NCBI RefSeq assembly: GCF_007859315.1
Contig: NZ_VOHA01000002.1
Coordinates: 682,001 to 746,000 of the forward strand
From: Reyranella sp. CPCC 100927
Lineage (GTDB): Bacteria; Pseudomonadota; Alphaproteobacteria; Reyranellales; Reyranellaceae
Length of the DNA: 64,000 nt
Direction: 5' to 3'
Shown one piece after another: positions 3,821 through 48,269 of the stretch. The notes under the pieces are model-generated. The model had not been told where the DNA came from, made no database searches, and saw only the letters and a list, made by a program, of their open reading frames with translations. Each line of letters opens with the position of its first letter. Positions within the stretch are counted from its first letter, which is position 1. Position numbers and translations under genes: made by a program.

Positions 3821-3872
3821 GGCGGCCTCCCTCGGTTGCGGGCAGTCTACCGCCTAACGTTCCATTCTGTCT

Positions 3873-3960
3873 TCCTGGGAGCGCGGGCGTCCCGCCCGCC
3901 CATGACAGGCGAAAGCAAGGCTTTCGCCTTGATGCGGGCGGGACGCCCGCGCTCCCAGGA
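3873..3960. repeat. Palindromic intergenic element, family F copy 1
   Basis: An 88-bp near-perfect inverted repeat: TCCTGGGAGCGCGGGCGTCC on the left pairs with GGACGCCCGCGCTCCCAGGA on the right, with a second nested hairpin (GCGAAAGC/GCTTTCGC) in the centre. Copies are at 62344-62419 and, deleted, at 31785-31813. It lies between divergent genes. Confidence 0.85.
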
Positions 3961-4029
3961 AATCAGCCATGCTGCCGGCGAATAGGTCGCCGGCGTACTC
4001 TCACGGCCAATAACGATGGGAGAAACGCC

Positions 4030-8823: not shown

Positions 8824-8836
8824 AGCTCAAATCATG

Positions 8837-8942
8837 TCCCCTCCCCCCTTGTGGGGGAGGGTTAGGGAGGGGGGTGCCCCATGCGCGACGCCTCGTGTGG
8901 AAAGCCCCCCTCCCCAGCCCTCCCCCACAAGGGGGGAGGGGG
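8837..8942. repeat. Palindromic intergenic element, family D
   Basis: About 106 bp with G/C-run arms: TCCCCTCCCCCCTTGTGGGG on the left pairs with CCCCACAAGGGGGGAGGGGG on the right, and inner arms AGGGAGGGGGG/CCCCCCTCCCC. It separates the two tandem DUF917 genes, so it was either inserted after the duplication or carried with it. Confidence 0.8.
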
Positions 8943-8969
8943 AAAGACGAGAGCGTGATGCGAAGCTCA

Positions 8970-27774: not shown

Positions 27775-27781
27775 TACAGCT

Positions 27782-27867
27782 GTCATCCCGAGCACAGCGA
27801 GGGATCTTCTGAAAGTGACGCACGGGGTGCGCCTGCATTGAAGATCCCTCGCTGCGCTCGGGATGAC
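27782..27867. repeat. Palindromic intergenic element, family B copy 2
   Basis: An 86-bp inverted repeat, GTCATCCCGAGCACAGCGAG on the left and CTCGCTGCGCTCGGGATGAC on the right, between convergent genes. Copy 1 is at 2693-2771. A decayed half-copy (about 27889-27914, with GGATCCCTCGCTG and GGGGTGAC) follows immediately. Confidence 0.85.
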
Positions 27868-27929
27868 AATCGCGACGGCGCTGTCCCTGGATCCCTCGCT
27901 GCTCCCGGGGTGACAGTGCGCTCGAATAG

Positions 27930-44513: not shown

Positions 44514-45641
44514 TCACGGCCGCGGGATCACCAGGTCGCGGTGGACGTTGATGCCCAGCAGCAGGCCGCAGGCGAACAGCACGGTGAGCATCGCGGTGCC
44601 GCCGTAGCTCACCAGCGGCAGCGGCACGCCCACCACCGGCAACAGGCCCATCACCATGCCCGTGTTGATGAACACGTAGAGGAAAACCGTGATGCCGATG
44701 CCCATCGCCAGCAGGCGGCCGAAATGGCTGCGCGCGCGCAGCGCCACGATGTAGGCGTAGAAGATGATGCAGACATAGAGCGCCAGCAGGATCAGCGCGC
44801 CGCGCAGGCCGGTCTCCTCGGTCCACATGGTGAAGATGAAATCGGTCTGCTTCTCGGGCAGGAAGTTCAGGGTCGACTGGGTGCCCATGCCGAAGCCCTT
44901 GCCCAGCATGCCGCCCGAGCCGATGGCGATCTTGGACTGCAGGATGTGATAGCCGGCGCCCAGCGGATCGAGATCGGGGTCGAGGAAGATGCGCACGCGG
45001 TTGCGCTGGTACTCGTGCATCAGCTTCCACGCCACCGGCAGGCTCGCGGCGCCCAGCGTGCCGGCCAGCAGGAACTTCCACAGCTTCACGCCGGCCACGA
45101 ACATCATGGCCGCCCCTGTGCTCAGCAGCACCAGGGCGGTGCCGAGATCGGGCTGCACCATCACCAGGCCAACCGGCACGACGATGCCCATCACCGGCGG
45201 AATCACATAGACGATGCGGCCGACCTGCTCGCGCGACAGCCCGTGGAAATAGCGGGCCAGGGCCAGAATGGCCGCGATCTTCATCAGCTCGGACGGCTGG
45301 ATCTGCACCGGGCCAAGATCAAGCCAGCGCTGGGCGCCCATGGCGCCCTTGCCGATCACGTCGACAGCCACCAGCAGCAGCACCGACAGGATATAGGCCG
45401 GGTACGCCAGCCGCATCCAGACGCGCAGATCGACCAGCGCCACCAGCAGCATCACGCCGGCGCCGATCGAGAACCGCATCACATGCTTGGCGGCCCACGG
45501 ATCGGGCTTCATGCCGCCGGCGGAGTAGAGCGCCGCCGTGCCGACGCCGGCAACGCCGATCAACACCAGCACCAGCCGCCAGTCCAGCCGCCGGATCTTG
45601 CCGGCCAGCGTGAGTTCGGTGCGGTTGGCGGCCAGGCTCAT
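44514..45641 (-). CDS. rodA: Rod shape-determining peptidoglycan polymerase RodA
   Basis: A SEDS-family glycosyltransferase, 375 aa with about ten membrane helices, which polymerises lipid II for side-wall growth. Conserved landmarks include GAMGAQRWLDLGPVQIQPSE, DLGTALVLLSTG and the C-terminal GVPLPLVSYGGTAM. The ATG at 45641 overlaps the mrdA stop by four bases, fitting the obligate RodA-PBP2 pair. Last gene of the mreBCD-mrdA-rodA operon. Confidence 0.96.
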   Translation of the reverse strand: MSLAANRTELTLAGKIRRLDWRLVLVLIGVAGVGTAALYSAGGMKPDPWAAKHVMRFSIGAGVMLLVALVDLRVWMRLAYPAYILSVLLLVAVDVIGKGAMGAQRWLDLGPVQIQPSELMKIAAILALARYFHGLSREQVGRIVYVIPPVMGIVVPVGLVMVQPDLGTALVLLSTGAAMMFVAGVKLWKFLLAGTLGAASLPVAWKLMHEYQRNRVRIFLDPDLDPLGAGYHILQSKIAIGSGGMLGKGFGMGTQSTLNFLPEKQTDFIFTMWTEETGLRGALILLALYVCIIFYAYIVALRARSHFGRLLAMGIGITVFLYVFINTGMVMGLLPVVGVPLPLVSYGGTAMLTVLFACGLLLGINVHRDLVIPRP

Positions 45642-47587
45642 GGCTCGCTCCGCTTGGGCGGCGGCACTTCGGCCACCGTGCCGCCGGCGAGAGCCGCGCT
45701 CTTGAAGCGCTCGGGCCGCCGGGACGGATCGATCTTCTGCGTCTGCAGCAGGATGTCGCGGGTGATCGGCGCGGCCGTGGTCGAGCCGCCCATGCCGTGC
45801 TCGACCACCACGGCGCAGGCGTAGCGCGGGTTGTCGACCGGCGCGTAGCCGCAGAACAGCGCGTGGTGCCGCAAGTGCCAGGGCAGCTCTGCCTGCGACA
45901 TCCGCCGCGCGCGCTCGCTCTCGGTGATGCGCTTGACCTGGGCGGTGCCGGTCTTGCCCGCCATCGCCATGCCCTTCTCGGAGATGCGCGAGGCAAACGC
46001 CGTGCCGCTCTGGCTGTTCACCACCATGTCCATGCCGGTCTGGACCGCCTTCAGATGCTGCGGATTGAAGCGCAGGCTGGCCCCGGAGGGCTTGTTCTGC
46101 ACCGCCGGCGGCTGCAGCGCGTCCCGCGCGCCGGCGCTGGCGGCGACCAGTCGCGGCTGCACGTCGAAGCCGCCGTTGGCGATGCGCGCCGTCATGACCG
46201 CCAGCTGCAGCGGCGTCGACAGCATGTCGCCCTGGCCGATGCCGAGATTGTAGGTGTCGCCGACACCCCAGGGCTTGCTCTCGCGATCCTGCTTCCACGC
46301 GCGTGTCGGCTGCAGGCCGCCCGACTCCTCCGGCAGCCCGACGCCGGTGGGCTTGCCGAAACCAAGCTTTGCCGCCACCTCGGCGATGCGATCGACGCCG
46401 GCGCGCTTGGCCGCCTCGTAGAAGTAGCAGTCGCACGACTGCTGCAAGGCCTCGACGACATTGAGCCAGCCGTGGCCGGCGGGATGGATCCAGCAGTATT
46501 TCTTGACGCCGCCGGGCATCTCGATGGAGCCGGCACAGGGGATCCGATCCCAGAGGCTGACGGTCTTGCTGTCCAGCGCCGCCAGCGCCGTCACCATCTT
46601 GTAGGTCGATCCCGGCGGGTAGACGCCCTGCGCCGCCTTGTTGAGCAGCGGTTTCTTCGGGTCGTTCAGCAGTTCCTGCCACTCGGTCTGGGTGACGCCG
46701 CGCGCGAAGGTGTTGTTATCGAAGCTCGGCACCGAGACCATCGCCAGGATGTCGCCGGTGATGACGTCCATCACGACGGCCGACGCGCTCTGGTCCTTCA
46801 GGCGCTCGGTCACGTATTGCTGCAGCTCCAGGTCGATGGTGAGCAGCAGATTGGCACCCGACTCGCCCTCGACACGATCAAGCTCGCGCACCACGCGGCC
46901 GACGGCGTTGACCTCGACCTGGATGCCGCCCGGCTTGCCGCGCAAGGCCTCGTCGGCCCCCTTCTCGACGCCCTTCTTGCCGATGCGCATGCCCGGCAGC
47001 TGCAGCACCGGATCGTCGCTGTCGCGCAGATCGTCCGGGGAGACGCGGCCGACGTAACCCACGATGTGGCTCATCAGCTCGGGGAAGAAATAGTCCCGCG
47101 TCTGGCCCAGGTCGATCGAGACGCCGGGCAGATCCGGCGCGTTGAATTCGATCTGCGCCACCTGCTCCCAGGTCAGGTTCTCGCGCACCGTCACCGGCAC
47201 GAAGCTGCGGTTGCGCCGCATCTGCTCGATGATGCGCTGGCGCTCGCCGTCGCTGATGGCGATCACGCGATCGAGGCGTTCCAGTACGGTCTCGGCCTGC
47301 TTCATCGCCTCCGAGACACGCCCCTTGTCGGCGGTGATCAGGACCCGGAAATTGTTGCGGTTGGCCGCCAGCGGCTCGCCGGTGCGCTCGAAGATCAAGC
47401 CGCGCGAGGGTGTCAGCGGCCGGGTGTTGATGCGGTTGTCGTCGGCCAGCACCTTGTACTTGTCCGACTCCACCGTCTGCAGCCAGTACAGCCGGGCGCC
47501 CAGCATGCCCAGCAACCCCATCTTCAGGCCGCCCAGCAACAGCGCCCGGCGGGTGAAGAGCGTGTAACGGTCGGCGTCACGCCTCAT
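45638..47587 (-). CDS. mrdA: Penicillin-binding protein 2 (elongasome transpeptidase)
   Basis: A class B PBP, 649 aa. One N-terminal membrane helix (ALLLGGLKMGLLGMLGARLY), a pedestal domain, then the transpeptidase with nucleophile motif SxxK at S327-K330 (PPGSTYK), an S-x-D/N-type motif in QQSCDCYF and KTG in AMAGKTGTAQ. It cross-links side-wall peptidoglycan with RodA. The start ATG at 47587 lies in the second copy of a 16-bp direct repeat and overlaps the stop of a 50-codon ORF made by the inserted family A element. Confidence 0.96.
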   Translation of the reverse strand: MRRDADRYTLFTRRALLLGGLKMGLLGMLGARLYWLQTVESDKYKVLADDNRINTRPLTPSRGLIFERTGEPLAANRNNFRVLITADKGRVSEAMKQAETVLERLDRVIAISDGERQRIIEQMRRNRSFVPVTVRENLTWEQVAQIEFNAPDLPGVSIDLGQTRDYFFPELMSHIVGYVGRVSPDDLRDSDDPVLQLPGMRIGKKGVEKGADEALRGKPGGIQVEVNAVGRVVRELDRVEGESGANLLLTIDLELQQYVTERLKDQSASAVVMDVITGDILAMVSVPSFDNNTFARGVTQTEWQELLNDPKKPLLNKAAQGVYPPGSTYKMVTALAALDSKTVSLWDRIPCAGSIEMPGGVKKYCWIHPAGHGWLNVVEALQQSCDCYFYEAAKRAGVDRIAEVAAKLGFGKPTGVGLPEESGGLQPTRAWKQDRESKPWGVGDTYNLGIGQGDMLSTPLQLAVMTARIANGGFDVQPRLVAASAGARDALQPPAVQNKPSGASLRFNPQHLKAVQTGMDMVVNSQSGTAFASRISEKGMAMAGKTGTAQVKRITESERARRMSQAELPWHLRHHALFCGYAPVDNPRYACAVVVEHGMGGSTTAAPITRDILLQTQKIDPSRRPERFKSAALAGGTVAEVPPPKRSEP

Positions 47588-47736
47588 GGCGCCCGCCTCG
47601 CAGGAAGATTCACCACAGAGGCACAGAGACACAGAGACAGCACAGAGATGACGTTTCGCGCGCCGCAGGCGCGCAACCACTTCTCTCTCTGTGCCTCTGT
47701 GTCTCTGTGGTGGCCTTTCATGGCGTCGCGCCTCAT
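47584..47736 (-). CDS. Element-derived 50-codon ORF linking mreD to mrdA
   Basis: Starts at the ATG in the distal copy of the duplicated mrdA start (overlapping the mreD stop as ATGA), reads MRRDAMKGHHRDTEAQREKW and then through the repeat, and ends LPARRAP with a TGA that overlaps the ATG of mrdA. Either it is translated merely to carry ribosomes from mreD to mrdA, or it is silent. The peptide sequence is that of the repeat, so no protein function is claimed. Confidence 0.45.
   Translation of the reverse strand: MRRDAMKGHHRDTEAQREKWLRACGARNVISVLSLCLCASVVNLPARRAP
47603..47714. repeat. Palindromic element, family A copy 3, inside the mre operon
   Basis: GGAAGATTCACCACAGAGGC on one side and CCTCTGTGTCTCTGTGGTGG on the other, with centre CGCGCGCCGCAGGCGCGC. 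Unlike copies 1 and 2, it lies inside an essential operon between mreD and mrdA. Confidence 0.88.
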
Positions 47737-48269
47737 GACCGGTTCCCCAGCGTGTTGAGCGGACTGCGGGCACGGCCGCGGCCCAGAATCCAGCCGAAGA
47801 TCGGATAGAGGAACAGCGACACGATGTACTGGAAGAACAGCGGCTGCGGATCGATGAAGCGCCATGACAGCAGGGTCACGACACACCACGCCATGGTGAC
47901 GGCCACGGCCGACAGCATGGCATAGCCCAGCCAGATGAACGTGAACGACACCGCCACCAGGTACTTCTGGTTGCCCAGGATCACCTGGCGAATCATCAGG
48001 AACTGCAGGGCCGACAAACCGACAGGGGCACCCACGCCGCCCTGCAGCAGATCGTACAGCATGCCGAACACGAACAGCAGCCAGGCCGGCAGGGCCTCGG
48101 CGCGGAACAGGCAGAAATGGTAGACCGCCATCAGCGGCAACAGCGGCGCCGCGGCCATCACATCCGGCAGCCGGATCGGCGCCAGGGTCAGCAAGATCAG
48201 CAGCCCCACCAGCGCACCGGGCAGCGCGGCGTAGAGCGCGCGGTCGAGCTGGTGCAGGAACTCGACCAC
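47733..48269 (-). CDS. mreD: Rod shape-determining protein MreD
   Basis: A 178-aa inner-membrane protein with five or six hydrophobic segments, for example ALPGALVGLLILLTLAPIRL and MLYDLLQGGVGAPVGLSALQ. MreD links MreC to the cytoplasmic MreB filament and the elongasome. It starts with GTG at 48269, one base after the mreC stop. Its stop overlaps the first, now superseded, mrdA-like ATG. Confidence 0.93.
   Translation of the reverse strand: MVEFLHQLDRALYAALPGALVGLLILLTLAPIRLPDVMAAAPLLPLMAVYHFCLFRAEALPAWLLFVFGMLYDLLQGGVGAPVGLSALQFLMIRQVILGNQKYLVAVSFTFIWLGYAMLSAVAVTMAWCVVTLLSWRFIDPQPLFFQYIVSLFLYPIFGWILGRGRARSPLNTLGNRS

Follow-up and report, generated by a model that had tools for sequence, protein, structure and literature searches.

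A bridging open reading frame through a palindromic insert at the mreD-mrdA junction suggests a stop-start relay kept within a bacterial family

In the window, a 64,000-nucleotide stretch of the source genome, a palindromic repeat separates mreD from mrdA, and the locus raises the question of how neighboring genes whose stop and start codons overlap in relatives could accommodate such an insert. The minus-strand gene order is mreB, mreC, mreD, insert, mrdA, rodA (Table 1). The mrdA product was identified as PBP2 through its match to TIGR03423 (689 bits; cut-off 455), and mreC, mreB, and rodA each had family matches in the profile search. MreD matched no NCBIfam or Pfam family and was named from its gene position and its homologues in 72 of 75 genomes of the bacterial family; the bridging ORF likewise matched nothing in NCBIfam or Pfam. 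The first-pass annotation had described a palindrome between the two genes, a 16-bp direct repeat of the mrdA start, a distal copy of that start overlapping the mreD stop, and a 50-codon ORF leading from this copy to the mrdA ATG, all of which were confirmed. The palindrome arms (30 nt, 90% complementary) lie inside the bridging ORF, the direct repeat is identical at 15 of 16 positions with the odd base silent in mrdA, and the mreD stop and mrdA start are 148 nt apart, first base to first base.

Table 1. Features of the mreD-mrdA junction, in window coordinates
Feature	Position	Strand	Remarks
mreD	47733..48269	-	178 aa ORF; adjoins mreC and mreB; stop TGA 47735-47733 within ATGA
Distal mrdA-start copy CATGAGGCGCGACGCC	47722..47737	-	Overlaps mreD stop as ATGA (47736-47733)
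Bridging ORF	47584..47736	-	50 codons + TGA, 153 nt, ATGA to ATGA; ATG 47736-47734; TGA 47586-47584 overlaps mrdA ATG
CACAGAG palindrome, first arm in reading direction	47683..47712	-	Further copies elsewhere in genome
CACAGAG palindrome, second arm in reading direction	47611..47640	-	RNA fold z -5.33
Proximal start copy CATGAGGCGTGACGCC	47573..47588	-	Holds mrdA ATG 47587-47585; aligned with relatives' starts
mrdA (PBP2)	45638..47587	-	649 aa; TIGR03423, 689 bits

The proposal that the insert entered an ancestrally overlapping junction is supported by the alignment of relatives. In a tree of MreD and MrdA, the source genome (G000) and Vineibacter terrae CC-CFT640 (G001) are sisters, with Rhodospirillaceae bacterium SYSU D60007 (G003) and then G002 outside. 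The junction in G003 is a bare ATGA overlap, and in G002 and the more distant G004 the genes overlap as GTGA, all three without an insert and without a second copy of the 16-mer. The ancestral state would have been an mreD stop and an mrdA start within one NTGA, which the palindromic repeat and the start duplicate would then have parted by 148 nt.

The junction of V. terrae has the same 148-nt distance, and its insert is likewise a 50-codon ORF running from ATGA to ATGA. This insert holds a different and unrelated palindromic family (64 matches in V. terrae and 65 in the source genome), the bridging peptides are likewise unrelated in sequence between the two species, and the shared insert length looks like coincidence. 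The idea of one ancestral spacer beneath both inserts was tested with spacer alignments: the left spacers after the ATGA align at 11 of 14 positions, a score that 37 of 1000 shuffles also attain, and the right spacers do not align (960 of 1000 shuffles reach the score). It should be noted that Vineibacter species elsewhere carry differing palindromic families in one and the same intergenic spacer (L229/L260 and L230/L257, in addition to window positions 47584-47736), as if these were shared landing sites.

Both inserts are predicted to form strong RNA folds (z of -5.33 in the source genome and -3.21 in V. terrae), which would suit a regulatory insert in which mrdA is adjusted relative to mreD, either by the hairpin or by ribosomes translating the 50-codon ORF across it, much as the intergenic ORF mgtQ is described to promote mgtB translation in Salmonella (PMC8092293). 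This explanation is very unlikely, given that the insert sequences of the two species are unrelated and that the bridges of element-free relatives are far shorter. The mrdA frame is also open upstream of the assigned start, with GTG codons 55 and 103 nt downstream of the mreD stop (measured from its first base), so that mrdA could in principle begin within the insert and encode an N-terminal extension; the ATG at 148 nt aligns with the starts in G003 and other relatives, leaving an upstream start scarcely probable.

The CACAGAG element has at least 77 matches in the source genome (9.08 Mb, 81 contigs), an inexact number because 40 of 97 candidates were scored and both orientations of the palindrome were counted. 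The same family has 81 matches in V. terrae, 13 in G003, and 8 in G002. The first-pass annotation attributed the duplicated start to the insertion; the duplicate is present, but insertion as its cause is not borne out by the other copies. Among 44 distinct copies from the source genome and V. terrae (45 rows minus one duplicate), a long flanking repeat (16 nt, one mismatch) occurs at the mreD-mrdA copy only, which exceeds chance expectation, while the remaining 43 have flanking repeats of 11 nt or less, within the mispaired background of 5-12, and element-free relatives also duplicate the start. A 16-bp repeat of this kind is unusual for the family, and target-site duplication is not supported as the family's usual mode of insertion, being absent from the 43 other copies. 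Compared with MITEs, the element has terminal inverted repeats in its 30-nt arms, and a constant target-site duplication was not found among the 44 copies. In V. terrae the junction has an exact 9-nt flanking repeat, a length reached by 32 of 2000 shuffles, and the flanks of its insert are not shared by the 10 other copies of its palindromic family that were compared. The duplicated stretch lies downstream of the ATGA in the source genome and upstream of it in V. terrae (CGGTCATGA, weak). Some CACAGAG copies have other ends, either CTGAAAGGAAAC-like (or its complement) or CTTTCATG (L086, L094, L108, L113, L254; L090, L091, L118), and the CTTTCATG end is common to the window copy. More palindromic repeats occur in the window at 2693-2771, 27781-27868, 3867-3966, and 8825-8954, such as GTCATCCCGAGCGCAGCGAGGGATC and CGCGGGCGTCCCGCCCGC.

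An open ORF through the CACAGAG element is cheap, since stop codons are scarce in all of its frames. Across the 43 other copies, 107 of 258 frames are open over 149 nt, and the three frames of the element are open in 64, 60, and 66 of 84 orientations; a preferred coding frame is not supported, given this near equality. Chance combined with independent initiation could then account for the junction, in that a stop-poor repeat and a duplicated start giving ATGA at both ends would be in phase for one-third of lengths, with mrdA using its own ribosome-binding site. That site is fair (-7.8 kcal/mol, against a background 10% quantile of -6.4), and the absence of bridges at most other element-bearing junctions of the source genome also favors chance.

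The junctions of the wider bacterial family weigh against chance. Of 75 genomes, 72 had an mreD match and 71 had readable junctions, three genomes being left out for want of the match and G067 (L081) because its contig ends in the gene. The mreD stop lies within an NTGA at all 71 junctions, and at 55 of them this NTGA is a direct overlap with mrdA. The other 16 are gapped, the mrdA start lying 10 to 148 nt past the stop codon's first base, and every one is bridged by a single mini-ORF or, in L020 and L057, by a pair of consecutive mini-ORFs, each hand-over occurring at an NTGA. Several element-free bridges look like tandem start duplications. The unit measures 17 nt in L011, L019, L021, and L025; nine genomes have a 14-nt unit, which reaches ~3.4 copies in L030. 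There (L030:2050-2096), as in L020 and L057, a tandem array of 13-14-nt units TCATGAGGTCCGGG with an ATGA in each lies at the mrdA start. One unit in L030 is 13 nt long, and the three steps total 41 nt, which is 2 mod 3, and therefore a single 14-codon ORF spans all three. In favor of a relay, the mrdA start of L011 is all but devoid of a ribosome-binding site (-0.8 kcal/mol).

The gapped junctions represent five distinct additions, each 2 mod 3 in length: 11, 14, and 17 nt, plus two 149-nt additions. By this analysis's own arithmetic, the chance of the phase alone is ~0.004 and rises to ~0.012 once the discovery site is set aside, though both values are weakened by the choice of site and by the relatedness of the genomes, through which the 16 bridged junctions represent fewer events. 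Openness adds a factor of about 0.41 for the CACAGAG family (107/258) and 0.6 for the other family (36 of 60 frames); after mononucleotide shuffling, the two inserts are still open in 0.18 and 0.31 of cases. The first-pass annotation had allowed that coupling was kept by chance or by selection: the coupled layout is indeed kept and, given that all 16 gapped junctions are bridged, selection is more likely than luck to be the reason.

Junctions from other alphaproteobacterial families provide a control. For 67 of these, the better-scoring of 108 genomes with an mrdA match and with the upstream gene judged by open length and hydropathy rather than homology, 10 have an NTGA overlap, five another overlap, 50 are gapped and unbridged, and two are bridged (2-3 codons). 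A bridge is not an automatic outcome of a gap, because these 50 junctions have gaps without one, as does that of G037, from the same order and a different family. The bridged share of junctions without an NTGA overlap, 2 of 57, counts against chance with independent initiation, as do the five in-phase additions, and that account is therefore regarded as unlikely, while keeping some weight.

A second control is provided by other element-bearing sites. Gene context, from a simple codon model, places 11 of 14 CACAGAG copies in the source genome between co-directional genes and three between convergent genes, though these 14 were no random draw, several having passed a scan for NTGA-to-NTGA frames. 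That scan covered 56 element sites without regard to gene context, and it was passed by 9 of 45 CACAGAG rows (one copy counting double) as well as by the V. terrae junction. It was set aside as uninformative because the element end itself supplies a GTGA and because a copy between convergent genes passed. A chain test was then applied to 11 of 13 element-bearing tandem junctions (10 with the CACAGAG family and one with the other; L222 and L236 were skipped, and L163, which is incomplete, was left out). The single clean bridge is an 80-codon ATGA-to-ATGA ORF through a CACAGAG copy between genes for an ABC permease and a FAD oxidoreductase, and its support should be read as one clean match among 11 junctions tried. 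In G003, G010, and G005 these two genes overlap without a spacer, since start codons in the oxidoreductase frame occur no later than the permease stop. Two mechanical passes were, by judgement, not counted: at L225 the GTG reached is 66 nt inside the called gene, and at L230 the TTG lacks the following A in G001, whereas an upstream ATG is conserved. Among unbridged sites, the genes at L223 are parted by a ~31-nt spacer in G003, and spacers holding other palindromes occur in G001 at L229 and L230 (the latter unbridged by this judgement of its start); the downstream gene of L229 was not found adjoining in G003. Bridges thus occur at 3 of 3 sites that overlap in relatives (mreD-mrdA, V. terrae, and permease/oxidoreductase) and at 0 of 3 spaced sites, which are small numbers.

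Taken together, the mreD-mrdA junction is likely a stop-start relay (termination-reinitiation) kept by the family, with the 50-codon ORF bridging the insert. In E. coli and Haloferax a gap of ~20 nt is described as almost abolishing coupling (PMC10666635), and so a distance of 148 nt that includes a strong hairpin should uncouple mrdA unless the -4 spacing is restored. A ribosome finishing mreD could restart on the bridging ORF at the mreD NTGA, read through the hairpin and open it, and restart again at the mrdA NTGA, such that the translated bridge would restore this spacing. On this reading, the bridging ORF would be translated, mrdA would depend upon this translation, and selection would have retained the ORF. 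The peptide itself is probably without function, as the V. terrae ORF has the same length and an unrelated sequence; with the two peptides unrelated, it is the act of translation and not the product that would matter. Whether selection for an unbroken relay is strict, so that mini-ORFs without coding value arose repeatedly through repeat insertion or tandem stop-start duplication as in-phase adapters and let the junction grow without uncoupling, is an evenly balanced proposition.

Several points count against a relay, namely the fair ribosome-binding site of mrdA, the stop-poor element, bridges at 2 of 67 other-family junctions, and a second PBP2 gene. Some independence of mrdA from the relay is possible given its ribosome-binding energy. 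A promoter scan, limited to the sigma-70 consensus, found none. The second PBP2 gene (L164, G000:C14:11261-13183, and L172, G001:C64:29290-31215) is 72-73% identical to mrdA and weakens the description of the operon as essential in the first-pass annotation. It overlaps, as GTGA, the stop of an M23 peptidase gene with a Csd3_N2 domain, and an equally close copy was found in none of six other genomes searched. The second PBP2 may have made the mreD-mrdA junction more forgiving.

Based on these sequence comparisons, the best reading is that insertions at coupled junctions would survive where the hand-over from stop to start is maintained by an ORF. The junctions represent natural replicates of an operon tolerating insertions between coupled genes, complete with empty sites and same-genome controls, and they carry the prediction that additions at coupled junctions must be open and in phase. 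If true, comparative genomics could reveal translational coupling, and some of the short intergenic 'hypothetical' ORFs would be relay adapters and not genes.

A search of titles and abstract openings in the open-licence literature for the CACAGAG motif, Vineibacter, or mreD-mrdA coupling showed no account of this case among the entries listed. Rickettsia palindromic elements are palindromic repeats kept in an open frame and located inside genes, whereas the insert here forms a separate ORF in the space between two genes. The nearest precedent, judged by described layout, would be the MIRUs, mobile mycobacterial repeats that occur at start codons and carry an ORF coupled at -4 nt (PMC12548453, a 2025 review citing Supply et al. 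1997). Both involve short repeats at start codons and a repeat ORF coupled to a gene, here with ATGA at both ends of the 50 codons. As MIRUs are described in that review, the mreD-mrdA junctions differ in using two unrelated repeat families and in having relatives that bridge by tandem start duplication without an element. Other CACAGAG copies are mostly away from coupled junctions and, with one clean bridge among the 11 tested, were not found generally at coupling start codons. Termination-reinitiation pairs, as described in PMC6728339 and PMC10666635, share the ATGA/GTGA stop-start overlap of co-directional genes, though here the relay would run over one interposed ORF (4 to 50 codons), or over two consecutive ones, with NTGA at both ends. 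Finally, mgtQ, a small ORF between mgtC and mgtB, offers an intergenic ORF with an effect on translation of the next gene, shown for mgtQ and proposed here; by the published description mgtQ acts via specific residues and stem-loops (PMC8092293), whereas the bridging peptides differ between species.
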